Source of the DNA: Gammaproteobacteria bacterium
GTDB taxonomy: Bacteria; Pseudomonadota; Gammaproteobacteria; Poriferisulfidales; Poriferisulfidaceae
NCBI GenBank assembly: GCA_026706895.1
Contig: JAPOXW010000004.1
Coordinates: 35,253-99,252 of the forward strand
Reading direction: 5' to 3'
DNA length: 64,000 nucleotides
The translations under genes were made by a program, and so were the position numbers. This document shows, in pieces, positions 7,684 to 53,631 of the stretch. Position 1 is the first letter of the stretch. Each line of letters opens with the position of its first letter. The notes below the pieces were generated by a model. It was not told the DNA's origin. It saw only the letters and a program-made list of their open reading frames with translations, and ran no database searches.

Positions 7684-10485
7684 ATGAGGCGGATCGCCTG
7701 CCCCCTGCATATACCGCTTGGGGGGTATTGCGCCAAAACCATCCTGGAACATCACGCGGCGGCCCTGCCGGATCTGACCCACCTTGCAATCCTGGTACCG
7801 AATGTCGCGTCGGGCCGGGCTCTGCGGTCGGCATTGCTTGCCCACGTCGAATCCGACCACCAAGGGCTGCTTCTGCCTCCTATCCTGACTTTCCCGGCAT
7901 GGGCACGGCAGCACAGCCGCTTCGAGGGTACGGAAAACCATTTGTCCGAATTGCTGGACTTGGTGGGCGTCCTGCAAAAAAGCGAGACTTTGCGGTCTCT
8001 AGAGCAAGCGGACTTTTGGTCGCTCGCCCGCGAGATGATGGAATTGTTCGACCAGCTGTGGCTCAACGAAATCTCATTGCCATCGGGTCAGGAAGAATTG
8101 ACTTCACGACTTCAGGATTCCTACCATATTGCCGATGAGCCTCCTGAACAATTAGGTGACGAGGCTCGTATCATCCACCTGCTGTGGACTGCCTGGAGCA
8201 AAGGTTCAGGGAGCTTCCTTAGTTCGGGAAAATACTACCGCGAGGCTTTGCGACACCTGACTCCCCCTTCGGAGACACAAGCCATCTACATCTGTGGTCA
8301 CGACCGGCTTGCGGCAGCTGAAATCGAAGCACTTGAGCGACTCGATCAGGAAATTCCAGTTTCCATCCTCACCCGACCCAATTCTCTCATTTCCTTGGAT
8401 GCAGAGCCACCTACCGAGAGCATTTCGCCCTCTCCCCATGCCACTACCCTCCAAAAGGTTTTTGCACAGGAAGAATCCACCATGGTGGAACGTATGCGAG
8501 CCTGCCAGGCAGATTGCCCTGAAGATCCTCTGAAGGGTCGGCTTGCCACTTTTGTTGCGGAACAGGCGGAGCCTCACGCCCGCGCGATCGACATCCAGAT
8601 CCGGCGCTGGCTAAAGGAAGGCCGCCGGAAGATCGGACTGGTTACAGAGGATCGCAAATTGGCACGCCGGGTTCGCGCCTTACTGGAACGCGCTGGCATC
8701 CAGATCCAAGACTATGCCGGTTGGGCTCTCTCCACCACAAGTGCGGCCAGTACGATCGAGCGGTGGCTTGAATGCTTGAATCAGGAATTTCACTACTTGG
8801 CGCTTCTGGACATTCTTAAATCTCCATTCGTGCCCCTGAAAGGAACTTCCAGCGAATCGGGTCGAATCGGAGACTTCGAACATCTTCTGTATCGCCGCAA
8901 TATTCCCAGTGGTTTGGAAAACTATCGGCAGGTCGCAGATGGAGAACCTGACTGGCTGGACATGCTGGAGCAGATCGAGCAAGCTGCCCGCCCCTTGCTG
9001 GCACTGCGAGAGTCGACCGGCGGTGAGTATATGCGAGCCCTGCTGGAAAGCCTGGATCTTCTAGGCTGCCGGCCCTGTCTGGCGGGCGACGAAGTCGGAA
9101 AGCAGGTTTTGTCGGAACTGGACCGCATGTGTTTCCAATTGTCGCAAAGCGAGACCCGGCTGCCGAAATCCCAGTGGGATGCCCTATTGCGCTGGATGCT
9201 GGAACAACAGAACTTCCGACACAGATCCTCTCAAGACCTGGTTTCCCTGATTAATCTCAATCATGCCCATCTCACTCGATTCGACTGCCTGATCGTTGCC
9301 GGCATGGATTCCCGCCACTATCCGGGCACGGATTCCTCTTTCCTCGTATTCAACGACTCGGTTCGCGGCGATTTGGGGCTACCCACCCGCACCGAACTCA
9401 AGAAACTGGATCTGCAACGATTCCTGTCCCTGATCCTGTCCTCCGAGCAGGTTCTCCTAACCTACCAGAAAACCGACCAGGATGAGCCACTCCTGCCGAG
9501 CATCTGGTGGACCCAGATCGACGTGTTCCATCGCCTAGCGTACAAGGCTTCGCTCAAAGAACCATCCTTGTCCGTGCTCAGCCTGCATCCGGATGCCTGG
9601 GTACGGCCTCCCGGACTTCGAATTCGTGAGACTGCCCCCGAAATCATGCCGCATCCTCCCGCCAGCCCGGGCCTGCTGCCAAGCAGCATTTCGGCCAGCG
9701 GGCACCAGGCCTTGGTTGATTGCCCGTACCGCTTCTATGTCCGAGACATGCTTCGCATCCGGGAAACCGACATGATCCGCGAGGAAATGGATAGCTTGGA
9801 GTTCGGCAACTATGTCCATCAATGTCTGAATGCCTTCCACTCCGGCCTCCCCGGTGCTCCGGGACCGTGGCAAGGCCAAATAGATGGCCGCGAGGCTGCC
9901 GCGTTCAGGCTATTGCAAGAAATCGGGGTGTACTTCATGGACCGGCTGACGCCGAGCCTCTCGAACATGGTGTTCCTGGAGCAATGGAAATCCATCGCTC
10001 GGCGCTACATGAAGTCTCAACAATATTATGAAAAACATCAAGTTATTCTTGAAACTGAAAAAGAAGTAGAGCATAGGGTTGATAAAGGATTGGTGCTTTG
10101 CGGGCGCATTGACCGGATGGACGAGGATCAGGACGGGAATCGTATCGTGATCGACTACAAGACTGGCTCCAAAAGAATCTCCGAGGATGAAGTACAAAGC
10201 GGCGAACAGGTTCAATTAACCAGCTACGCGCTGATGACGGAACCGATCGGACGAGCCGAATACTGGTGGCTAAGCCAAGATCCGCAGAAAAAAATACCTT
10301 TGACATCCGTGGAGGGCGAATTTCTGGAAGCGCTCGGCCGAAAAGTGCACAGCCGGCTACGTGAGATGTTTCAGGACTTGCGTGCAAGCCATGAAATGCC
10401 GGCTCATGGAGACGAAGCGACTTGCGCTTTTTGCTATGCGCAAGGAGTGTGTCGCAAGGACGTGGAAATCGGAAGTTCCGCGTAA
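7684..10485 (+). CDS. AddB-like PD-(D/E)XK nuclease / probable DNA repair protein
   Basis: 933 aa; inactivated-helicase-like body; C-terminal GRIDRMDEDQDGNRIVIDYKTGS nuclease motif; CPYRFYVRDML and CAFCYAQGVC cysteines typical of AddB-type Fe-S nucleases; starts right after the fdxA stop. Confidence 0.8.
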   Translation: MRRIACPLHIPLGGYCAKTILEHHAAALPDLTHLAILVPNVASGRALRSALLAHVESDHQGLLLPPILTFPAWARQHSRFEGTENHLSELLDLVGVLQKSETLRSLEQADFWSLAREMMELFDQLWLNEISLPSGQEELTSRLQDSYHIADEPPEQLGDEARIIHLLWTAWSKGSGSFLSSGKYYREALRHLTPPSETQAIYICGHDRLAAAEIEALERLDQEIPVSILTRPNSLISLDAEPPTESISPSPHATTLQKVFAQEESTMVERMRACQADCPEDPLKGRLATFVAEQAEPHARAIDIQIRRWLKEGRRKIGLVTEDRKLARRVRALLERAGIQIQDYAGWALSTTSAASTIERWLECLNQEFHYLALLDILKSPFVPLKGTSSESGRIGDFEHLLYRRNIPSGLENYRQVADGEPDWLDMLEQIEQAARPLLALRESTGGEYMRALLESLDLLGCRPCLAGDEVGKQVLSELDRMCFQLSQSETRLPKSQWDALLRWMLEQQNFRHRSSQDLVSLINLNHAHLTRFDCLIVAGMDSRHYPGTDSSFLVFNDSVRGDLGLPTRTELKKLDLQRFLSLILSSEQVLLTYQKTDQDEPLLPSIWWTQIDVFHRLAYKASLKEPSLSVLSLHPDAWVRPPGLRIRETAPEIMPHPPASPGLLPSSISASGHQALVDCPYRFYVRDMLRIRETDMIREEMDSLEFGNYVHQCLNAFHSGLPGAPGPWQGQIDGREAAAFRLLQEIGVYFMDRLTPSLSNMVFLEQWKSIARRYMKSQQYYEKHQVILETEKEVEHRVDKGLVLCGRIDRMDEDQDGNRIVIDYKTGSKRISEDEVQSGEQVQLTSYALMTEPIGRAEYWWLSQDPQKKIPLTSVEGEFLEALGRKVHSRLREMFQDLRASHEMPAHGDEATCAFCYAQGVCRKDVEIGSSA

Positions 10486-42153: not shown

Positions 42154-45100
42154 TCAGCCGGGCTGCGGGGCGCCGATTGCCGTGCTGTCGCGCCTGGAAT
42201 TCACGCGCAGGGAGACCGCCAGCAGGGCCGGCACGAGAAGCATCAGCACGGCCGTGGCGAGAAGAATGCCGAAGCCCAGCGAGGCCGCGAAGGGGACCAG
42301 GAACTGGCCGTGGACGGACCGCTCGAAGATGAGCGGGGTGAAACCGAGGAAGGTCGTGATCGAGGTCAGCATGATGGGCCGGAACCGCCCCTTCGCGCCT
42401 TCGACGATCGCTTCCCGCGCGGGGGCGCCCTCGTGCATCTTCTGGCCGATGAAATCGAGCATCACCAGCGAGTCGTTCACCACCACCCCGCTCAGGCCGA
42501 CGAATCCCATCACCGAGACGAAGCTGAACGTGACGCCCAGGACCAGGTGTCCCAGGATCGCGCCGATCAGCCCGAAGGGGATGACGGCCATGATGATCAG
42601 GGGCTTGGAATAGGATCGAAGCGAGATCGCCAGCAGCGCGAAGATCGCGAACATCGCGAGCACGAAGCTGCGGATCAGCGAGTCGAAGGCGTCGAACTGC
42701 TGCTGGGCCTCGCCGCCGAACGTGTAGGACAGGTCCGGGTCTTCGGCAGCCAGTTCCGCGAGGGTCGTGGCCGCCAGCGTGGCGTTCGCCTCGGCGCCGG
42801 AAATCACGGCCGGGTCGACGTCGCCGGTGATCGTGACGATGCGCTGGCCGTCCGTCCGGCGGATGGACGGCGACGAAGTCCCCAGCCTCAGCCTCGCCAC
42901 ATGGCCGAGCGGCACGTCCGCCCCGCCCGGCGTGCGGATGACGTATTGCTCGATGTCCGTGATGGCGTCGCGCTCGTCGCCGGGCGGGCGCACGTACACC
43001 CGCACCTCGTCCCGGCCCCGCTGCATGCGCAGGGCCTCCTCGCCGAAGAACGCCGCCCGGACCTGCCGCGCCAGGTCTTCCACCCGGATTCCCAGGGTGT
43101 GCGCCTCCGGCCGCAGTTCGAGCTGCATCTCCCGGACCCCGGTCGCGTGGTCCGAGCGGACGTCGAAGACGCCCTGCAGGCTCCTCAGGCTGGACACCAC
43201 CGATTCGGCGGCCGGCCCGAGGCGCCCGGCGTCGGGGTGCGACAGCACGGCTTCGACCGGGGCGCCCAGCGCGATCACCTCGCCGGCGAAGCTGATGCCC
43301 CGGACGTAGGGCAGGAAGCCCACCTCTTCGCGCCAGGCCGAAAGGATCTCGCCCGTGCCGACCCGCCGCTGCTCGGCCCCCAGCAGCTTGAACTCGACCA
43401 CCGCGATGTTGGATTCCGGGTTCAGGCTCGGCAGGGGAATCAGCCCGCCGCCCTCCCCCCGCGCGCGCTGGCCGACGGTCAGGGTCACCCCGGACAACAA
43501 CGGCGGCCCGCCGTCCGCCGGGTCGCCCGAGAGCCGCTCGATCACGCGGCGCCCGGCCGCCTCGATCTCCAGGGCCACCGCGTGGGTTCGCTCCGGCGGA
43601 GTCCCCTCCGGCATCTCGATGCTGACCGTGACGAAGTCGCCTTCCACCTGATCGGCGAAGGTCGTCCCGACGATGCCGGACGGGATCAGCGACACGCTGA
43701 GCACGAGCAGCCCGACGGTGCCGGCGACCACGATTCCGGGCTGCGCCGTCGCGAAGCGCAGCCACCGGTCCAGGGGCCCCGCCAGGAACCCCTGCAGCCA
43801 TTCGTCCACCCGGCTCTGGCTGCGCCTCAGGAACCGGCCGACCGCGGCGGTGGGCTGCCAGCCGGGCCCGGGCAGGTGGGACAGGTGATTGGGCAGGACC
43901 GCCAGCGATTCCACCAGCGAGATCAGCAGCATGGAGATCAGGACGACGGCCGTCGGCAGGATGATCTCGCCGATGCCGCCCGGCAGGAACAGCAGCGGCG
44001 AGAACGCGGCGACCGAGGTCAGCACCGCGAAGATCAGCGGCTTCCGGATGCGCCGGGCGCCGCGCACGGCCGCGACGAACCCGCTGCGCCCCTGCATGCG
44101 TTCGTGGTGGATGTGTTCGGAAACGACGATGGCGTCGTCCACCACGATGCCGATCGCCAGCACGAAGGCGAGCAGCGCGTCGGCGTGCAGCGGAAGGTCG
44201 AGCGCCAGCACGACCGCCAGCGTCCCGACCCCGGAGACCACGAGGCCGACCGCCACCCACAGGGCCAGCCGGATCTCCAGGAAGAGCGCCAGGAAGAGAA
44301 AGACCAGGGTCAGGCCCAGCGCGCCGTTCTTGAGCAGGATGGCGAGGCGCTCGTCGAACAGCTGCGATTCGTCGTTCCAGACCGTGATGCCCACGCCGTC
44401 CGGAAGCGAGGGGATCAGCTCGGTCTCGAGGAAGGTCCGCGCGGCCTCGGCCACTTCGGCCACCTGCTCGCGGTTCGCCCGGTAGACTTCGATGAACACG
44501 GCGGGCTTGTTCTGGTGCCGGACGAGGAGGTCCGTGTCCTCGAAACCGTCCCGCACTTCGGCGATATCGCCCAGCCGCAGCAGCGTGCCGTCGTCGCCGG
44601 CCCGGACCACCACCTCCTCGAAGTCCCGCTGCACGTATCGCTGCCCCAGGGTGCGCACGCGCACCTTGGACTCCAGGGTGTCGATGCTGCCGGCCGAAAG
44701 ATCAAGGGAATCGCGCCGTACGGCATCGGCGATGTCGCGCAGCGTCAGGCCCAGGGCGCGCAGGCGGTGGGACGGCACCTCGATGGAGATCTCGTAGTCG
44801 CGCATCCCTCCGGTGTCGACATCGGTCACGCCGGGCAGCGCGGCGAGCCGGTCCTCGACCTGGTAGGCCAGCTCCTTCAGCGACCGCTCGGGGATGTCGC
44901 CGTACAGGATGAGCCGCAGGACGCTGCGGCGGTTGGTCATCTCCCGGAACGTGGGGCGCTCGGCAGACTCCGGGAAAGACTGGATCTGGCCGACCGCGGC
45001 GGTAATCTCGTAGAGCGCCTGGCCGACATCGGTGCCGGACTCGAGTTCGACGCGCACGGAGGCGATGCCGGGGGCCGCGACCGACTTGACCTTCTTGACC

Positions 45101-45360
45101 TTCTCGAGCGCGCTGACGCGCTCCTCGATCTTGACCACGATCGACTCTTCCACCTCCTCCGGCGACGCGCCCGGATAGGCGACCGAGACCTCGATATGGT
45201 TGAACGGCAGTGTCGGCCATGCCTGCATGACGATCCCGCCGAGGGACAGCAGCCCGGCCGCGACGACCGCCCACATCAGCAGGTTGGCGGCGACCCCGTT
45301 GCGCACCATGTAGGCGATGGGCCCGGGCGGTTCCCCCTCGTATCTGCCGTTCGAATTCAT
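42154..45360 (-). CDS. RND efflux transporter permease (HAE1/AcrB-like)
   Basis: 1068 aa; VLAIGIVVDDAIVVSEHIHHERM, VMGFVGLSGVVVNDSLVMLDFI. Confidence 0.93.
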   Translation of the reverse strand: MNSNGRYEGEPPGPIAYMVRNGVAANLLMWAVVAAGLLSLGGIVMQAWPTLPFNHIEVSVAYPGASPEEVEESIVVKIEERVSALEKVKKVKSVAAPGIASVRVELESGTDVGQALYEITAAVGQIQSFPESAERPTFREMTNRRSVLRLILYGDIPERSLKELAYQVEDRLAALPGVTDVDTGGMRDYEISIEVPSHRLRALGLTLRDIADAVRRDSLDLSAGSIDTLESKVRVRTLGQRYVQRDFEEVVVRAGDDGTLLRLGDIAEVRDGFEDTDLLVRHQNKPAVFIEVYRANREQVAEVAEAARTFLETELIPSLPDGVGITVWNDESQLFDERLAILLKNGALGLTLVFLFLALFLEIRLALWVAVGLVVSGVGTLAVVLALDLPLHADALLAFVLAIGIVVDDAIVVSEHIHHERMQGRSGFVAAVRGARRIRKPLIFAVLTSVAAFSPLLFLPGGIGEIILPTAVVLISMLLISLVESLAVLPNHLSHLPGPGWQPTAAVGRFLRRSQSRVDEWLQGFLAGPLDRWLRFATAQPGIVVAGTVGLLVLSVSLIPSGIVGTTFADQVEGDFVTVSIEMPEGTPPERTHAVALEIEAAGRRVIERLSGDPADGGPPLLSGVTLTVGQRARGEGGGLIPLPSLNPESNIAVVEFKLLGAEQRRVGTGEILSAWREEVGFLPYVRGISFAGEVIALGAPVEAVLSHPDAGRLGPAAESVVSSLRSLQGVFDVRSDHATGVREMQLELRPEAHTLGIRVEDLARQVRAAFFGEEALRMQRGRDEVRVYVRPPGDERDAITDIEQYVIRTPGGADVPLGHVARLRLGTSSPSIRRTDGQRIVTITGDVDPAVISGAEANATLAATTLAELAAEDPDLSYTFGGEAQQQFDAFDSLIRSFVLAMFAIFALLAISLRSYSKPLIIMAVIPFGLIGAILGHLVLGVTFSFVSVMGFVGLSGVVVNDSLVMLDFIGQKMHEGAPAREAIVEGAKGRFRPIMLTSITTFLGFTPLIFERSVHGQFLVPFAASLGFGILLATAVLMLLVPALLAVSLRVNSRRDSTAIGAPQPG

Positions 45361-45673
45361 CGCTTCGAGAACACCCGGCTCCTCGCGGTCGAACCTCGGG
45401 CCGACAGCGTCTCGCGCGCGCCGGCGGGGAGGGGAAATCCGTAATGCCTGTTCACAGCTCGCGCACGTGCCGCCTCGATGGTGACCGAGTCATGCATGGG
45501 GACATTGTACCCAGTCTCCGGCGCAAGCCGGTCTCGTTTCCCGCCGGAGCCGGGAGGCACCGGAGAAACATCCGGTCAGGCCTGGGCCCCGCCTCCGCGG
45601 CCCGTCACGGATGGGCCCGGAAACCGGTTTTCCGACCGCCTGCAGGCCCTTTGCCACGGACTGCTGCTTCGGC

Positions 45674-46882
45674 TTATTGCGCCGCGTCGGCCCCGGCCTG
45701 CACCCTCATGCCCTCGGTGGCGAACTGAATGCCGCCGGTGACCACCCGCTGCCCGTTCTCGAGGGCTCCGGCGACATAGGCCTGATCGTTGGCGCGCTGC
45801 AGGACGCGCACCGGAACGATGTGCACGGAACCGGTGCCGCGGACCACCCAGACTTCGTCACCCGGCTGCAGCGCCGCACGCGGGACCCGATAATACGCTT
45901 CCGGCACAAGGCCCCTGATCGCCACCTCCACGAACTTGCCGACCAGAAGCGGAGGCGCATCGCCCGTCCTCCCAGCCGGGACATCCCTGGAGAAGGGGTT
46001 CGCCACGCGCACGATCACGTCGATGGTTCGCGTCTGCTTGTCCAGCGACGTTTCGGCCCGGTCCACGTAACCTTCCCAGGTGTAGCGGGCATCGCCATAC
46101 CGGGCGCTCACGCGCGCGGGCACCTGCGGTTCGGCGTCCCCGGCCCGAAGTTCCCATAACCCGGGAATCAGGGCCGCGCTGGCGTCGGACAGCGGCACGA
46201 CCACCTCGACGGCATCCGTGGCGAAGATGCGCCCGACGGCCTGTCCCGCGGTCACGAACTCCCCCAGGTCCACCGATTCGTCCCGCACGTAGCCGTCGAA
46301 AGGCGCCCGGACCCGCGTGCGGGACAGCGCCAGCTTGGCCTCGGCAACCCGGGCCTCCTCGCGGTCAAGCGCGGCCTCGGCCGCCTTCAGTTGGGGCTCC
46401 CGCAGGGTCAGGGGATTCGCCCGGCGGGCCACGGACGCCCCATTGGAGCGCCGGCCGGAGAATTGCTCGTATTCGGTGCGGGCGATTTCCGCCTTTTCCC
46501 GGGCCTCAAGCAGTTCCACCCGCCTGGCCTCAAGATCCGCTTCCGCCTCGCGGACCCGGTACAGGTAGTCCTCCTCCTCGATCCGGAAGATGGTCTGGCC
46601 CGCTTCGATCCGGCCGCCGCTCTGGAAGCCCGGGTTGATCCAAACCACCTTGCCGCTGACCTGCGGGATGATGTCGACTTCCGCGCTCGGCCGCACCGTC
46701 CCGGCCCCGTGCACCGGGATGGCGCCGTCGCCGGGCATCACGCGGGCGGTCTGCGCGAATGGAATCTGGGGCGGCGGCTCGCGACGCTCGGGCTCAGGCG
46801 CCAGCGACACCATGAAGGCCGCCAGTGCCACGGAGCCGGCGACGATGGCGCCGGCAGCCAAAAAACCCGCTCGTCGGCTCAT
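45674..46882 (-). CDS. RND periplasmic adaptor (HlyD/MFP family)
   Basis: VSGKVVWINPGFQSGGRIEAGQTIFRIEEEDY, RVRAPFDGYVRDESVDLGEFVTAGQ. Confidence 0.9.
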   Translation of the reverse strand: MSRRAGFLAAGAIVAGSVALAAFMVSLAPEPERREPPPQIPFAQTARVMPGDGAIPVHGAGTVRPSAEVDIIPQVSGKVVWINPGFQSGGRIEAGQTIFRIEEEDYLYRVREAEADLEARRVELLEAREKAEIARTEYEQFSGRRSNGASVARRANPLTLREPQLKAAEAALDREEARVAEAKLALSRTRVRAPFDGYVRDESVDLGEFVTAGQAVGRIFATDAVEVVVPLSDASAALIPGLWELRAGDAEPQVPARVSARYGDARYTWEGYVDRAETSLDKQTRTIDVIVRVANPFSRDVPAGRTGDAPPLLVGKFVEVAIRGLVPEAYYRVPRAALQPGDEVWVVRGTGSVHIVPVRVLQRANDQAYVAGALENGQRVVTGGIQFATEGMRVQAGADAAQ

Positions 46883-46996
46883 GCTAATTCGGAGACCCGA
46901 TCCGGACCAAACTGCCCGGTCCGCTATCGTAGCACTCCCCGCAGGGCCCGCGAGTCCCGGGGTCCGAGTTCGGCGGGGCGGTCTCCGGCACGGGGC

Positions 46997-48553
46997 CTAC
47001 TCGGCAGGCGCCGCGGCGGCCCGCAGGCCTGCCGCGCGGGCGGAGTCGCCCGGCCGGGGCCGGGGCGGTTCGGACGCCACCCATGTGCCGCCCAGGGCGC
47101 GGTGCAGCGCCAGGCGCGCATACGCCAAGTCGCGCTCTGCCGCCGCGAGCGCGGAATTTGCGCTGACCAGGGTCTGCGCGGCCGTCAGGTAGTCTTCGTA
47201 GTCCGCCACCCCGGACTGGTAGCGCCGCTCCTGGTACCCCGCCTCGGCCCGCGCCTCCTCGGCGAAAGATTTCCGCAGGGTGTAGAAGCGGTGGCGGGTC
47301 TCCCAGCCGGCCAGGGCGACTTCGACTTCGTTGACCGCCGTCACAACGGTGCGCCCATACGCGGCAACCGCCTCGTCCCATTGCTTTTCGGCGAGCGCCA
47401 CGTCGTGCTGCAGGCGGGACCCCTGGAAGACCGGCCCCAGCAGGTTCACGGTCAGGTTCCGGAACCACTGGTCGGGGTGGAACCAGTCCTCGAAGTCCGA
47501 ATTCTGCACCCCGACCGTGCCGCCCAGCGACAGGGATGGCTTCAAGGCCGCACGCCGCACGCCGATCCTGTAGCGGGCCGCCTCCATCCTCTCCCGGGCG
47601 GCCCCGACGTCCGGGCGTTGCGCCAAGAGGTCCGCAGGGATCCCCACCGGGACGGGGTCGAGCGCCGCCAACGGCGGCAGCGAGTCGGGCAGCAAGCCCG
47701 CGAGGTCTTCGCGGAACCCCCCCAGCAAGACCCAAAGGCGCGCTTCCGCGTCGGCCAGCCGCCCCTCGATTGCCGGCAGTTCGGCTTCCGCGTCCCACAG
47801 GCTTCGGCGCATCCGGTACAGGTCGCGGGCGCCGTCCAGCCCATGGTTGTACCGGAACGTGGTCAGTTTCTCCCGTTCCCGGAAGATCTCCACGATTTCT
47901 TCCGAGAGTTCCCATTGGCGCCGCAGATAGGCGATTTCCAGGTACGTGCGCACGGTCTCGGCCACGACCCCGATGCGGGCGGCGCGGTAGTCCCACTCCG
48001 AAGCCAGGAGATCAGACCCGGCAGCCCGGGCCGCATTGCGGTTGCGCTCCCAGAAATCGACTTCATAGGAGAAATCGATACTGAAGGTGTAGGTCGTCAG
48101 GCTGAGCCGCTCGGGCAACTGCAACCCGAAGTTCCGGTCCAACTCGTCCACCTGCGCGCCGATCCCTGCGTTAGTCGGCGCGCTGGCATCTTCGGCCTGG
48201 GCGGCCGGCTGGACCCGCGGCGCCCGGATGGAATCCGCAATCCGTTCCCTTGCCTTCGCCTGCTCGACCCGGGCCACCGCTTCCGCCAGATCGAAGTTCG
48301 AGGCGAGGACACCCTCGACAATCCGATTCAAAGCCGGATCGTTGAATGCGTTCCACCACTGTGACGGGGCGTATGAGCCGGACACGGTGCTGCCCGCAAA
48401 CGCTTCGGGCAATTCCACCGACGGCCCGGAAACGGGAGGAGCCAGGGACGTGGAACAAGCGGCAGCGAGAAAACTGCCGGTCATGCCCAGGAATGCCGCC
48501 GCCGATGCGGCGCGCCGGCGCGGCCTGTCCGGCCTCATGGCCACAGCCGGCAA
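46997..48553 (-). CDS. Outer-membrane efflux lipoprotein (NodT/TolC family)
   Basis: Lipobox-like SFLAAACSTSLAPP, PLPPL...IPADLLAQRPDVGAARERMEAA, SLSLGGTVG. Confidence 0.9.
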   Translation of the reverse strand: MPAVAMRPDRPRRRAASAAAFLGMTGSFLAAACSTSLAPPVSGPSVELPEAFAGSTVSGSYAPSQWWNAFNDPALNRIVEGVLASNFDLAEAVARVEQAKARERIADSIRAPRVQPAAQAEDASAPTNAGIGAQVDELDRNFGLQLPERLSLTTYTFSIDFSYEVDFWERNRNAARAAGSDLLASEWDYRAARIGVVAETVRTYLEIAYLRRQWELSEEIVEIFREREKLTTFRYNHGLDGARDLYRMRRSLWDAEAELPAIEGRLADAEARLWVLLGGFREDLAGLLPDSLPPLAALDPVPVGIPADLLAQRPDVGAARERMEAARYRIGVRRAALKPSLSLGGTVGVQNSDFEDWFHPDQWFRNLTVNLLGPVFQGSRLQHDVALAEKQWDEAVAAYGRTVVTAVNEVEVALAGWETRHRFYTLRKSFAEEARAEAGYQERRYQSGVADYEDYLTAAQTLVSANSALAAAERDLAYARLALHRALGGTWVASEPPRPRPGDSARAAGLRAAAAPAE

Positions 48554-48929: not shown

Positions 48930-50960
48930 ATGAGATTCGCTGAAGAACTCCTCCTGATGCTGCTCGACGAGAAGACCGGCTATTTCATTCCCATCCCGGA
49001 GTGGAAGATGTCCTGCGTGCTGGCGGGAGGCGTCCTGATGGACCTCGCGCTGGAAAACCGCATCGACACGGATGTGGGGACGCTCACCCTGATCGATTCG
49101 ACCCCCACCGGCGACGAACTGCTGGACCCGACCCTGGAAGAAATCGCCAAGGAAACCGAGACACATGCTCCGCAGTTCTGGATCGAACGCATTGCGCGGA
49201 ATGCGGACGCCATCAACACGAAGGCGCTCGACCGCCTCTCCAAGGTCGGCATCCTGGATGCGGATGAAGGCGGGTTCTGGAACCTGTCGAGCAAGGTTGC
49301 CCGCTCGGGACGCTACCCCCTGGTGGACGGCAGGACCGGAGAGGAGATCAAGAGCCGGATCATGCGGACGCTGCTGGACGACGAGATTCCGGATCCGCGC
49401 GACATCGCCATCATCGGCCTGATGCACAGTTGCGGCGGCATCCGCGCGATGCTCGAGCCCGAAGAATACGAGCTTGCCGAAGAACGGATCGAACTCCTCA
49501 GCAAGATGGACCTGATCGGACAGAACATCGGGGCTGCGATTCAAAGTTCCTACCGCCCCCCCGAAAGCATGCGCACGGTGCGGCACCGGGCCATGCCGGT
49601 CATCGGGCTGAAGGACATGCTCCTGTCGAAAACATTCCGCGCGCGCGACCTCCCCAGATTCTTCGCGGAACAGGCCCAAAAGCACGGACCGGTATTTGAT
49701 CTCAAGGCCGGTGGCCGAGACATGATCGTCATCGCCAGCGCGGAGCTGAACCATTGGTTCAGCCAAAAGGGCCGGCTCCATGTCCGTTCGCAGGACTTTA
49801 TCGCGGACTTTCAGCATACGTGGGGAACCGGGCGGTCCATCGCCAGCATGGACGGCGCCGACCATTTCCGCATGCGCAAGATGGTGCGGGCGGGCAATTC
49901 CCGCGCGGTGGTCGAGGATCGATTGGACGAATTGCTGGCCATGGCCAGGGGGCACTTCGACTGGTGGGGGATCGGAAACGCCGTCCGTACCGAGATGGCG
50001 TGCCAGCGGATGATCGGCGAACAGGTCGCCAATCTCAGCGTGAGCATTGCTCCCGCCGACATCCTGGATGATCTCATCAAGTACGAGTACCGAGCGCTTC
50101 TGGCCACGGTGCACAAGCTCGTGCCCCGCTTCATGCTGCGCACGCCGGCGATGAAGCGGGCTCTCGGACGCGTGCTGGATCTTTACGCCCAGATTCACGC
50201 TTCGCACACGCCGGCCCAGCGGACCGGAAAGCGCCGGGACCTGGTCGACGACCTGATGGACCTGCACTACTCCGACCCGCAGTTCCTGCCGGAAACCGAT
50301 CTCGGCTTCGCGTTCATCGCGCCGATCATCGCCGGGCACTACCTGGGAAGCGAAATGTCCTTCGCCATCTACGAGATGCTCACCAACCCCGACGTGCACA
50401 AGCGGATCGTCGCGGAAGCGGATGCGCTCTTCGCCGATGGGGACCCGACCGGCGGCGACCTCGACGTGTCGGCGATCGACGTGACCCACCGGTTCATCAT
50501 GGAAACGCTGCGGCTGCACCCCGTGATTCCCATGCACCTGCGGACCGTGATGAACGGCTTCGAGGTCGAGGGATACAAGATCCCGCCCAACAGCACACTC
50601 ATGGTCGCGTTTACCGCCTCCCATTTCGATGAACGGTTCTTCAAGGATCCCCTGAAGTTTGACATCGACCGCTTCGCGCCGCCCCGAGGCGAACACAAGC
50701 AATATCCGAACGCTTACGCGCCCTTCGGCATCGGGACGCACACCTGCGGGGGCGCACGCTGGAGCGAGCTGCAACTGGCCATGAACCTGATGCTGATGGC
50801 CCATCACCTCGAGCTGGAATTACATCCGAGGAACTACAAGCTCGGGATCAACCCGCTGCCCAAGATGAGCCCCGACAGGAAATTCGGGTTCCGCGTGGTG
50901 CGGCATCGTTATCCGTTCGAAGCCACTGAAACCGCATATCACGGCAGAAAATTGAACTGA
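48930..50960 (+). CDS. GPP34 (GOLPH3-like) domain - cytochrome P450 fusion protein
   Basis: 676 aa. N-terminus FAEELLLMLLDEKTGYFIPIPEWKMSCVLAGGVLMDLALENRIDTDVGTLTLIDSTPTGDELLDPTLEEIAKE = GPP34-like. C-terminal part has P450 ExxR (ETLRLHP) and heme-Cys FGIGTHTCGGARW, Cys codon at 50745-50747, in the same uninterrupted frame. Confidence 0.9.
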   Translation: MRFAEELLLMLLDEKTGYFIPIPEWKMSCVLAGGVLMDLALENRIDTDVGTLTLIDSTPTGDELLDPTLEEIAKETETHAPQFWIERIARNADAINTKALDRLSKVGILDADEGGFWNLSSKVARSGRYPLVDGRTGEEIKSRIMRTLLDDEIPDPRDIAIIGLMHSCGGIRAMLEPEEYELAEERIELLSKMDLIGQNIGAAIQSSYRPPESMRTVRHRAMPVIGLKDMLLSKTFRARDLPRFFAEQAQKHGPVFDLKAGGRDMIVIASAELNHWFSQKGRLHVRSQDFIADFQHTWGTGRSIASMDGADHFRMRKMVRAGNSRAVVEDRLDELLAMARGHFDWWGIGNAVRTEMACQRMIGEQVANLSVSIAPADILDDLIKYEYRALLATVHKLVPRFMLRTPAMKRALGRVLDLYAQIHASHTPAQRTGKRRDLVDDLMDLHYSDPQFLPETDLGFAFIAPIIAGHYLGSEMSFAIYEMLTNPDVHKRIVAEADALFADGDPTGGDLDVSAIDVTHRFIMETLRLHPVIPMHLRTVMNGFEVEGYKIPPNSTLMVAFTASHFDERFFKDPLKFDIDRFAPPRGEHKQYPNAYAPFGIGTHTCGGARWSELQLAMNLMLMAHHLELELHPRNYKLGINPLPKMSPDRKFGFRVVRHRYPFEATETAYHGRKLN

Positions 50961-51021: not shown

Positions 51022-53631
51022 TCAGAACAGGAAACTGCCGACGAGGCTCCAGGTGCGGGGCTCGCCGAGCGAGCAGCGCTTCGCGCCGCGAAACCCCTCC
51101 GCGCCCGTCGTGTCCGCCAGCCCCAGCGAGCTCACCAGCGGCTGGGCGTACTTGGTCTGGCAGTATTCCTCGTCGAAGATGTTTCTGACGAACGCGGAGA
51201 CTTCCCAGTCGCCGTTCTGGCCGCGCACGCCGGCTCCGCCGTTGAAGAGGCTGTAGTTGCCCTGCATGGTGTCCGGGTCCTGATTCGTGTCCGCGCCCAC
51301 ATTCTGGTCGTCGACGAACTGGTACTCGCCCCGGACGAACCAGTCCATGGGGGCTTCGGACATGGAATCGGCCCACTCGGCGGAAAGCGCCACCTGCCAT
51401 TTGGGGGAGAAATGGTTGCGCTCGCCCTTCAGGTCCTGGGTCGGGATCGCCATTCTCCGGCATCCCTGGAGCATCTGCGCCAATCCCTGCGTGAGCGCAT
51501 TCTGCTGATTCGCCTGCAGCAGCGGACCCACGACCGACCGGCAGAATCCGACGTAGCTGTTGTGCTGCGACGCCGCGGCAATCCGGCCCGGAAGCGCGGT
51601 GGCGTCCGGGAAGGAGTCGAACTCCGAATCCAGGTAGCTGACGCCCAGCGCGGCATGGAATTCTTCCCGCGGCTGGAATTGCAGGTCCAATTCGGCCCCC
51701 TGCTGCGTGAGGTCGCCGGAATTGTGGACGATCAGGTTCAGCCCGTCGAACTGGCGTTCCTGGAAATCGCTGATCTTGGTGCGGTACAGCGTCGCATTGG
51801 CAACCAGTTGCCCGTCCCACAGGGTCCTCTTGATGCCCAACTCGTAGTTCTTGGTGGTTTCGGTGTCAAATTTCCGGGTTCTCCCGGCCTCTGCCACCTG
51901 GCTGTTGAAACCCTCGGGATTGAACCCGCCCGACTTGAAGCCGGTGGAGAAGTTGGCGAACAGCATGGTGCCGTCATCCAGAAGATAGCTGAGGTTGGCC
52001 AGCCAAGTGACTTTCTCCTCGTCGTGGGTCAGGCTTCTTCGGGGTTCATTCTGGCGCAGGTCCAGACCGAACGGATTGGTCGCCGAGGCCGGAGCAGCCA
52101 CCGGGTTGTGGACTACGCTTTCGAATTCCCCGTCCTTTTCGCTGCGGGTGTAACGCGCACCCGCGGCAAGGCGCCACCGCGGCGTCAGGTGATAGGTCAG
52201 ATGTCCGTACGCGGCATGGTTGCTGACCTCCTGGGTGAATTCCGTCGTGCCCATCTCCTCCCCGCCGCCAATGCAAGCGGTATAGGGGCTCAAGCCTGCC
52301 TGCGCCAACTGCTGTTGCTGCCGGGTCAGGGCTCCTTGCACGGCGGTCGCCAAGGGGCCTCCTCGAGTTTGATCCACAGCTGCCGCCTCTGCCACTAGAC
52401 GAGTGCCGAAAATAGCGGATGAAGCACCCGCCAAAGTTCTTACCATCCCGCAGAAGTCCTTCCCGAGGTGGAAGCGGTTGTCCAGAGAGTATTCCTCGTC
52501 GTAGTAGTACAGGCCGAGCACGTACTCGATGCGCCCCCCTTCCGGGGACAGGACCTGCAATTCCTGGGAGAACGTTTCGGCATCGTAGTACTGGTCGCTG
52601 GGCACCAGATCCGCCGGCATGCGAATCACCGACTGGTCCAGGCTGTCGTTCTGCCAGTCCCGGTAGGCCGTGATTGAACGGATCGTGTGGCCGCCCGCCG
52701 CCCAGGTGGCATCGCCGCTCAGGCCCCACTGCTCATCGTCGGCATCGTCGCGGTGCATCTGATGGAGCTCGTGGTCGCCGGCATCCCCGGCTTCCGGCAG
52801 TTGGCGGGTGGGAAGAAGGCCGGCAAGCCGGGGGAGGCTGCCCGCCGGTGCCGTATCGCCGATGAACTCGGTCACCGCGCCCTCGTTCCTGACCCGGGAG
52901 AAATCCGCCGTCAGGAGCACCTCAGTCTTGGCGTTCGGGGCGAAAAGCAGTTTCCCCCGCACGGTGATATCGTCCCAGCCCCCCACGACGCCCCGGCTGC
53001 CCTGCTCGGTGTAGGTGTTGTCGCCGTAACCGTCCCGTTCCGAGGCCTGGAAGGAAAGGCGGGCGGAAGCTTTCCCGGAGATCGCGCTGTTGACGTAGCC
53101 GGAAACGCGCTTCTCGTCGTAGTCGCCATAGCCGAAAGCAATCCGTCCTTCATGTTCGCCGGTCGGGTTCTTGGTGACGATGTTCAGCGCCCCCATCGAA
53201 GCATTGCGCCCGAACAAGGTCCCCTGCGGGCCGCGCAGCACTTCCGCCCGGTCCAGGTCGGTCATGCTGCCGACGACCGAGGAGGGCCGCGGATAGTACA
53301 CGCCATCGATGAAAACCGCCACGGTCGGCTCAATGGCGCTGTTGCCGACCGAGCCCACGCCGCGCAGAATGATGCGCTGGTTGGCGACCGTGCTGGACTG
53401 GGGCAGGCTCAGGTTGGGCGCATAGCGCGCCATGTCCCGGAGGGTGTGGACGTTTGATTTCGTGAAAAAATCGTCAGAGAAGGTCGTGACGGAAATCGGC
53501 ACGTCCTGCACGTTTTCCTCGCGCTTCTGTGCCGTTACCGTGATTTCTTCGATTCCCGCCGCCGCCGTGCCGCAAAAGGACATGGCGACAAAAAGCGAAA
53601 TGCCTGTGTTGAAATTTCCGGTTGACCCCAT
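51022..53631 (-). CDS. TonB-dependent receptor
   Basis: ITVTAQKREENVQDVPISVTTF plug, RGVGSVGNSAIEPTVAVFIDGVYYPR, DRAEVLRGPQGTLFGRNASMGALNIVTK; C-terminal WSLVGSFLF. Confidence 0.95.
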   Translation of the reverse strand: MGSTGNFNTGISLFVAMSFCGTAAAGIEEITVTAQKREENVQDVPISVTTFSDDFFTKSNVHTLRDMARYAPNLSLPQSSTVANQRIILRGVGSVGNSAIEPTVAVFIDGVYYPRPSSVVGSMTDLDRAEVLRGPQGTLFGRNASMGALNIVTKNPTGEHEGRIAFGYGDYDEKRVSGYVNSAISGKASARLSFQASERDGYGDNTYTEQGSRGVVGGWDDITVRGKLLFAPNAKTEVLLTADFSRVRNEGAVTEFIGDTAPAGSLPRLAGLLPTRQLPEAGDAGDHELHQMHRDDADDEQWGLSGDATWAAGGHTIRSITAYRDWQNDSLDQSVIRMPADLVPSDQYYDAETFSQELQVLSPEGGRIEYVLGLYYYDEEYSLDNRFHLGKDFCGMVRTLAGASSAIFGTRLVAEAAAVDQTRGGPLATAVQGALTRQQQQLAQAGLSPYTACIGGGEEMGTTEFTQEVSNHAAYGHLTYHLTPRWRLAAGARYTRSEKDGEFESVVHNPVAAPASATNPFGLDLRQNEPRRSLTHDEEKVTWLANLSYLLDDGTMLFANFSTGFKSGGFNPEGFNSQVAEAGRTRKFDTETTKNYELGIKRTLWDGQLVANATLYRTKISDFQERQFDGLNLIVHNSGDLTQQGAELDLQFQPREEFHAALGVSYLDSEFDSFPDATALPGRIAAASQHNSYVGFCRSVVGPLLQANQQNALTQGLAQMLQGCRRMAIPTQDLKGERNHFSPKWQVALSAEWADSMSEAPMDWFVRGEYQFVDDQNVGADTNQDPDTMQGNYSLFNGGAGVRGQNGDWEVSAFVRNIFDEEYCQTKYAQPLVSSLGLADTTGAEGFRGAKRCSLGEPRTWSLVGSFLF

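Follow-up and report, generated by a model that had tools for sequence, protein, structure and literature searches.

Two questions are raised by one gene in the 64,000-nucleotide stretch of DNA analysed here (the window): what a bacterial cytochrome P450 acts on when it begins with a GOLPH3-like (GPP34) domain, and what that domain contributes. The reading that explains the observations best, held with some confidence, is that the P450 oxidises a sterol or triterpenoid and that the GPP34 domain docks it, either to the membrane itself or to a partner at the membrane. The gene (48930–50960, plus strand) consists of 676 codons in a single open frame that runs unbroken between its ATG and its stop codon, with AAGGAG located 9 nt 5′ of the ATG.

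The fusion gene and its two domains

The initial annotation had placed a GPP34 domain and a P450 in one uninterrupted frame, and this is borne out by the Pfam matches, the frame itself and the predicted fold. The GPP34 domain comprises residues 4–205 (48939–49544, plus strand) and matches PF05719 with 119.3 bits (cut-off 29.1 bits) over profile positions 2–199 of 201. The P450 domain extends from about residue 216 to 676 (49575–50957, plus strand) and matches PF00067 with 137.4 bits (cut-off 22.8 bits), the best stretch being residues 408–637; an NCBIfam scan of the protein gave P450 matches below cut-off only. Two outcomes set beforehand as speaking against this architecture were checked, and neither a missing GPP34 match nor a stop near 49550–49600 was found.

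The AlphaFold2 model of the full-length protein has a pLDDT of 89.9 and a pTM of 0.86. A Foldseek search with this model returned P450s only, headed by P450 BM3, CYP51 and CYP120 (TMt about 0.8) and including the CYP51-type structures 4uhl and 7snm, and a separate model of the GPP34 half was therefore built and searched. The model of the N-terminal 215 aa (pLDDT 89.4) matched GOLPH3 (9qpq; E = 3.2e-8, TM 0.75), followed by 3kn1 and Vps74; the eight best PDB matches were all GOLPH3 or Vps74. Homology of this half to GOLPH3 3KN1 was also found with hmmsearch (E = 1.4e-17).

Homologues with the same two-domain order were sought by a contig scan with the fusion alignment, and 79 further loci with intact full-length fusions were found, at 40–94% identity. 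Their frames encode 652–704 aa and nearly all cover residues 1–660; both Pfam domains are present in 65 of the 65 members scanned.

Both domains belong to known families; the GPP34–P450 architecture and its sterol setting are undescribed. The literature searched, with subscription papers outside its scope, contains no report of GPP34 together with a bacterial P450 or with sponge symbionts. To our knowledge, almost no function has been assigned to bacterial GOLPH3-like proteins. One such protein, SCO4440 of Streptomyces coelicolor, has been linked to wall-deficient cells in what its authors call the first report in prokaryotes (2025, PMC12402492); it is also a bacterial GPP34 protein but is described with the GPP34 domain only, with no fused enzyme. 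The fusions tie one bacterial GOLPH3-like group to a definite biochemical context and present GPP34 as a modular domain that can be joined to an enzyme or a transporter.

The GPP34 half: pocket residues, hairpin and charge

The domain shares its fold, family, hydrophobic hairpin and acidic face with GOLPH3/Vps74, which acts in the Golgi both as a PI4P effector and as a COPI adaptor. Unlike GOLPH3/Vps74, it is joined in cis to an enzyme, is strongly acidic, lacks the COPI-binding N-terminal tail and has a replaced PI4P pocket. The pocket residues of GOLPH3, W81, R90, R171 and R174 (PMC4414131, PMC12494035), align with P23, A32, D93 and N96 of the window protein. Among 81 aligned fusions, these positions are mostly P/A, A/V/I, D/E and I/S/V, respectively, and the R171 position is D or E in 79. 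The net charge of the domain is −17 in the window protein, with a median of −19 (range −26 to −9) in the fusions. Binding of PI4P or other anionic lipids, which the initial annotation had proposed for GPP34, is unsupported, given the strong acidity of the domain and the replacement of all four pocket residues. The second part of that proposal, a membrane anchor, remains plausible in view of the retained hairpin.

The tip of this β-hairpin, F116-W117-N118-L119 (49275–49286, plus strand), is a candidate for membrane insertion; it aligns with the GOLPH3 hairpin, F116 and W117 falling on F194–L195. The hydrophobic residues are as conserved as the domain core (F116 in 77, W117 in 76 and L119 in 77 of the 81 fusions). 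Judging by the predicted fold and the hairpin, GPP34 may well dock on the membrane, and this is the side to which the balance inclines.

A tentative case can also be made for a domain that serves chiefly in protein docking or oligomerisation, its acidic surface holding the basic P450 domain or a basic portion of a redox partner or transporter. The strongly negative GPP34 half is accompanied by a P450 part with a median net charge of +8, and the GPP34 domains of the fusions are more acidic than most of the other bacterial GPP34 domains compared (n = 8, that of locus L017 included; −3 to −12). The electronegative membrane-facing surface of GOLPH3 binds the short basic tails of Golgi enzymes (PMC12494035), which makes docking in cis or in trans a fair reading. 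Furthermore, other GPP34 domains are joined to an MFS transporter or to a membrane domain, neither of which would need a further anchor. Against a purely protein-binding role stands the hairpin, whose hydrophobic residues are conserved like the core, and protein docking does not exclude membrane docking as well.

GPP34 domains are found ahead of MFS transporters at L019, L030 and L009 (G036), the L030 protein matching Pfam GPP34 with 104 bits and MFS_1 with 98 bits; GPP34 is thus a recurrent N-terminal module. A second GPP34 fusion occurs in the window's genome (L135 9007–10236 and 10249–11775; G000:C23). There, the part behind GPP34 is a membrane domain of several helices in which two His pairs stand apart, possibly a b-type cytochrome, and a gene for a multihaem c-type cytochrome adjoins.

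The P450 half, its neighbours and its probable substrate

As the initial annotation stated, the P450 contains an ExxR motif and the loop FGIGTHTCGG. The K-helix motif E525-T-L-R528 (50502–50513, plus strand) has E525 and R528 invariant in 81 of 81 fusions, and the haem-ligand loop with Cys606 (50724–50753, plus strand) has G600, G602, T603, H604, C606 and G608 invariant in the same alignment. The canonical acid–alcohol pair of the I-helix, AGx(D/E)T, was not found in the 81 aligned fusions. It is replaced by A468-G-H-Y471-L-G473-S474 in the window protein (50331–50351, plus strand) and by the consensus A-[GSA]-x-Y-x-G-[SD] across the fusions, Y471 being kept in 80 and G473 in 78. The more distant GPP34–P450s of L017, L143 and L145 retain HT or DT, so the Tyr I-helix marks the clade of sterol-linked loci.

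With the acid–alcohol pair missing, ordinary monooxygenation is not assured, and the enzyme could be a peroxygenase, isomerase, desaturase or C–C lyase. The near-invariant Y471 and G473, the missing acid and the HT or DT of the distant relatives all point that way; this is nevertheless judged unlikely, as some P450s hydroxylate without the pair by means of the substrate's own hydroxyl. P450eryF is such an enzyme.

Membership of CYP51 was considered and rejected. The fusion P450 has the P450 fold and a sterol-cluster context in common with CYP51 but differs in the I-helix, is only 27% identical over 282 residues to the CYP51 of its own genome and falls into a separate clade in the tree. Features known only from sterol P450s were not found in the fusion P450. 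Methylococcus capsulatus CYP51 carries a fused ferredoxin, likewise a helper domain, in the place of which the present fusion has GPP34.

The evidence on the substrate comes from the neighbourhood, for which gene calls and all-against-all BLAST were made on the 79 loci and families were counted by tblastn. In the window, an RND system (42154–48553, minus strand) lies beside the fusion. It comprises an outer-membrane efflux protein (OEP/TolC-like) divergent from the fusion (46997–48553, minus strand; Pfam OEP, 138 bits), a HlyD/membrane-fusion protein (45674–46882, minus strand; HlyD_3) and an AcrB-type transporter (42154–45360, minus strand; ACR_tran, 528 bits). This system belongs to the recurring neighbour set: OEP was found near the fusion at 25, HlyD at 29 and AcrB-type transporters at 47 of the 79 loci. 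MMPL-type transporters (HpnN/HAE3-like) are present at 24 of 79, never together with AcrB, and an RND or MMPL transporter occurs at 71 of 79. A Rieske oxygenase of the KshA type (KshA_C domain) is found at 55 loci, a sterol methyltransferase (SMT; Sterol_MT_C domain, 62.4 bits, cut-off 21.7) at 35 and an amine-oxidase-like flavoprotein at 30; a LolA-like protein is another recurring neighbour. Where the flanks reach at least 9 kb in both directions (n = 45 loci), a Rieske gene is found at 40 loci and an SMT gene at 25. After collapsing at 80% identity, SMT or Rieske is present in 30 of 39 clusters and a transporter in 34 of 39. The association has outlasted rearrangement, as gene order and strand vary from one locus to the next.

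In L035 and L041, 16 bp separate the end of the Rieske gene from the fusion. Among the genomes of the window's genus, G003 and G004 have this gene intact, G001 and G002 carry a broken copy and the window's genome has none; a remnant was sought in the window and none was found. No sterol gene lies beside the fusion in the window, sterol neighbours being a feature of the family as a whole and not of this locus. A TonB-dependent receptor, possibly an uptake route, is encoded 3′ of the fusion (51022–53631, minus strand; Pfam TonB_dep_Rec) and also near the fusion in four congeners (L034, L035, L041 and L067).

Linkage to a complete set of sterol-synthesis genes is seen in L105 (Dehalococcoidia), where homologues of SdmA, ERG24, CYP51, SQE–OSC, SMT and SdmB are followed by the fusion and then by an MMPL gene. 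A gap of 144 bp lies between SdmB and the fusion, which shares its strand with most of the synthesis genes; these are 63–72% identical to those of the window's genus. In L097 and L104, CYP51–ERG24–SdmA–SdmB lie within 10 kb. The SMTs of the fusion loci are 37–50% identical to the SMT adjoining SQE–OSC in the genus (76% in L080, 67% in L105). The window's genome carries, on contig C10, SdmB-like, SdmA-like, ERG24, CYP51, SQE–OSC and DHCR24-like genes, a content that makes its organism a de novo sterol maker; SMT was not found in this genome and is present in four congeners. Clusters of SMT, CYP51, ERG24, OSC and SdmAB genes are known from sponge symbionts, and neither GPP34 nor a second P450 beside CYP51 appears in the main texts of the two studies (Kelly 2022, PMC9531527; Brown 2023, PMC10070321).

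In the window's genome, squalene epoxidase and oxidosqualene cyclase are themselves fused in a 1152-aa frame (L124 10702–14157; G000:C10:46201–49656) with the Pfam domains SE, SQHop_cyclase_N and SQHop_cyclase_C. Frames of about 1130–1410 aa round the OSC matches of other symbionts suggest that this fusion is widespread.

OSC was found in 19 of 50 fusion genomes (identity at least 57%) and in 4 of 274 genomes of the class (Fisher p = 7e-14). Both OSC and the fusion are common in sponge symbionts generally, so this co-occurrence is confounded and is not taken as main evidence. The 31 of 50 genomes in which no OSC was found would be incomplete assemblies or belong to users of host sterols.

A sterol or terpenoid substrate, as the initial annotation had supposed, is well supported by linkage to SMT, to KshA-type Rieske genes, to a complete sterol cluster and to a triterpene cyclase. 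As this linkage recurs in many lineages, the substrate is probably a sterol or a sterol-like cyclic triterpenoid.

The triterpene cyclase is found with a 38% identical paralogue in two Acidobacteriota (L143 and L144), the start of the paralogue overlapping the cyclase stop codon (ATGA). The cyclase is of the squalene-hopene type (375 and 357 bits), and a sulfotransferase gene follows the paralogue. This run (L143 6368–11515, L144 9617–14761) would, judging from its gene families, give these Acidobacteriota symbionts a pathway whose product is a triterpenoid both oxidised and sulfated.

Such an operonic arrangement, the scoring of the MMPL neighbour with HpnN hopanoid transporters and the fusion genomes without a detected OSC would all fit a hopanoid or other non-sterol triterpenoid as the substrate. 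That substrate is nonetheless improbable: SMT and KshA-type Rieske enzymes act on sterols or steroids in known cases, the L105 fusion directly follows a full sterol cluster, and the I-helix Tyr that characterises the window's clade is missing from the cyclase-linked paralogue.

The nearest GPP34-free P450 in the plasmid collection is WP_227398350 of the cyanobacterium Planktothrix agardhii (31% over 424 residues). It is encoded on the 62-kb plasmid p2 (L113), which carries SQE, OSC, CYP51, SdmB-like, Rieske and squalene synthase genes and several P450s and looks, by gene content, like a nearly full sterol-type cluster. Compared with proteins of the window's genome, its cyclase is 56% (OSC), its CYP51 47%, its SQE 43% and its SdmB-like SDR 49% identical; its Rieske protein is nearer to the KshA type. 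WP_227398350 thus shares the sterol-type setting but is without GPP34. A second GPP34-free relative (G253) adjoins SDR genes and a 3-ketosteroid-dehydrogenase-like gene. The tree groups the nearest GPP34-free P450s with the fusions.

The 3-ketosteroid-dehydrogenase-like neighbour of G253, the KshA-type Rieske genes and the many genomes without OSC could also be read as signs of host steroid catabolism, the enzyme serving breakdown and not synthesis or tailoring. There is little to recommend this, since no ring-cleavage or side-chain β-oxidation family is prominent among the recurring neighbours, SMT and full sets of synthesis genes recur at fusion loci and the neighbouring transporters are RND/MMPL, not Mce-like.

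In the preferred reading, the substrate of the P450 would be a sterol, or a cyclic triterpenoid resembling one, that lies in the cytoplasmic membrane of a sponge symbiont. N-terminal GPP34 would do what a transmembrane anchor does for the microsomal P450s of eukaryotes: its hairpin, with the hydrophobic F116–W117, would dip into the bilayer and its acidic face would lie against the basic P450 domain or a basic membrane partner; docked in this way, the active site would stay near its lipid-dissolved substrate. The product might then be handed to the adjacent RND/MMPL transporter, which would move it to the host or into the envelope. A precedent by analogy is BstA of Methylococcus, which belongs to the MMPL family and binds 4-methylsterols through its periplasmic domain (PMC10942540). 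As at the fusion loci, the BstA/BstB/BstC system has an MMPL/RND transporter encoded beside sterol genes (PMC10942540); sterol transport by the neighbours at the fusion loci is putative, and many of these loci have an AcrB tripartite system instead.

Distribution, origin and selection

Full fusions are present in four of the five other genomes of the window's genus, with identities of 94, 91, 86 and 44%. Of 275 genomes drawn at random from the class, the window's own was the only one with the fusion; it occurs in 13 of 247 Acidobacteriota genomes, often as two or three paralogues, and was not found in the plasmid collection. Fusion genomes are mostly metagenome-assembled genomes (MAGs), probably from sponge projects, and cover about ten phyla. 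The record titles name Gammaproteobacteria, Acidobacteriota, Chloroflexota, Alphaproteobacteria, Nitrospinota, Gemmatimonadota and Latescibacterota, as well as one Acidimicrobiia and one Aminicenantes bin. One carrier, 'Ca. Porisulfidus' TsSOB (MRSX01), is the listed genome of its genus and derives from the sponge Theonella swinhoei. Many other bins appear to come from known sponge projects, their names being linked to hosts by prefix: RHO, COS and CAR fit sponge hosts in PMC8163846.

The tree of 80 fusions mixes phyla, with 16 label changes against a minimum of nine; Gammaproteobacteria rows, for example, group with a Gemmatimonadota row. Horizontal transfer would be the simple reading of this topology, and some bins may be mis-assigned. 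The 25 sampled fusions form one clade relative to 16 other P450s (SH-aLRT 95), and a single fusion event may lie behind them. Between the window gene and three congeneric orthologues, omega is 0.05–0.09 for the GPP34 half and 0.05–0.11 for the P450 half. Both halves are under purifying selection, and the constraint on GPP34 is as strict as that on the enzyme. An assembly or annotation artefact, conceivable as the source genomes are MAGs, can be dismissed given 79 loci from many independent assemblies, omega of 0.05–0.11 and both domains in every member scanned.

The source of side-chain-modified sponge sterols is disputed, and 24-isopropylcholestane has been claimed as the oldest biomarker of animals. 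What is known of sterol machinery in sponge symbionts is extended by lipid transporters, a Rieske oxygenase and an oxidative enzyme not described before, and the recurrent linkage of the fusion to sterol genes may help to explain the origin of unusual sponge sterols. More speculatively, the fusions might represent a new class of membrane P450s that use a GOLPH3-type domain without a PI4P site as their anchor and tailor symbiont- or sponge-derived sterols from a locus mobile across phyla; the unusual sponge sterol chemistry, like the sterane record ascribed to sponges, would then be partly bacterial.

Two GPP34–P450 paralogues per neighbourhood were observed in L064 and L078; those of L078 (668 and 674 aa) lie on opposite strands with an amine-oxidase-like gene between them. 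In L034, a broken second GPP34–P450 and a broken Rieske gene (8398–8733 and 9296–9796; G002:C31) stand beside the intact fusion, the broken copy retaining the haem-side part only, with an in-frame stop. Locus decay is thus seen within the window's own genus.
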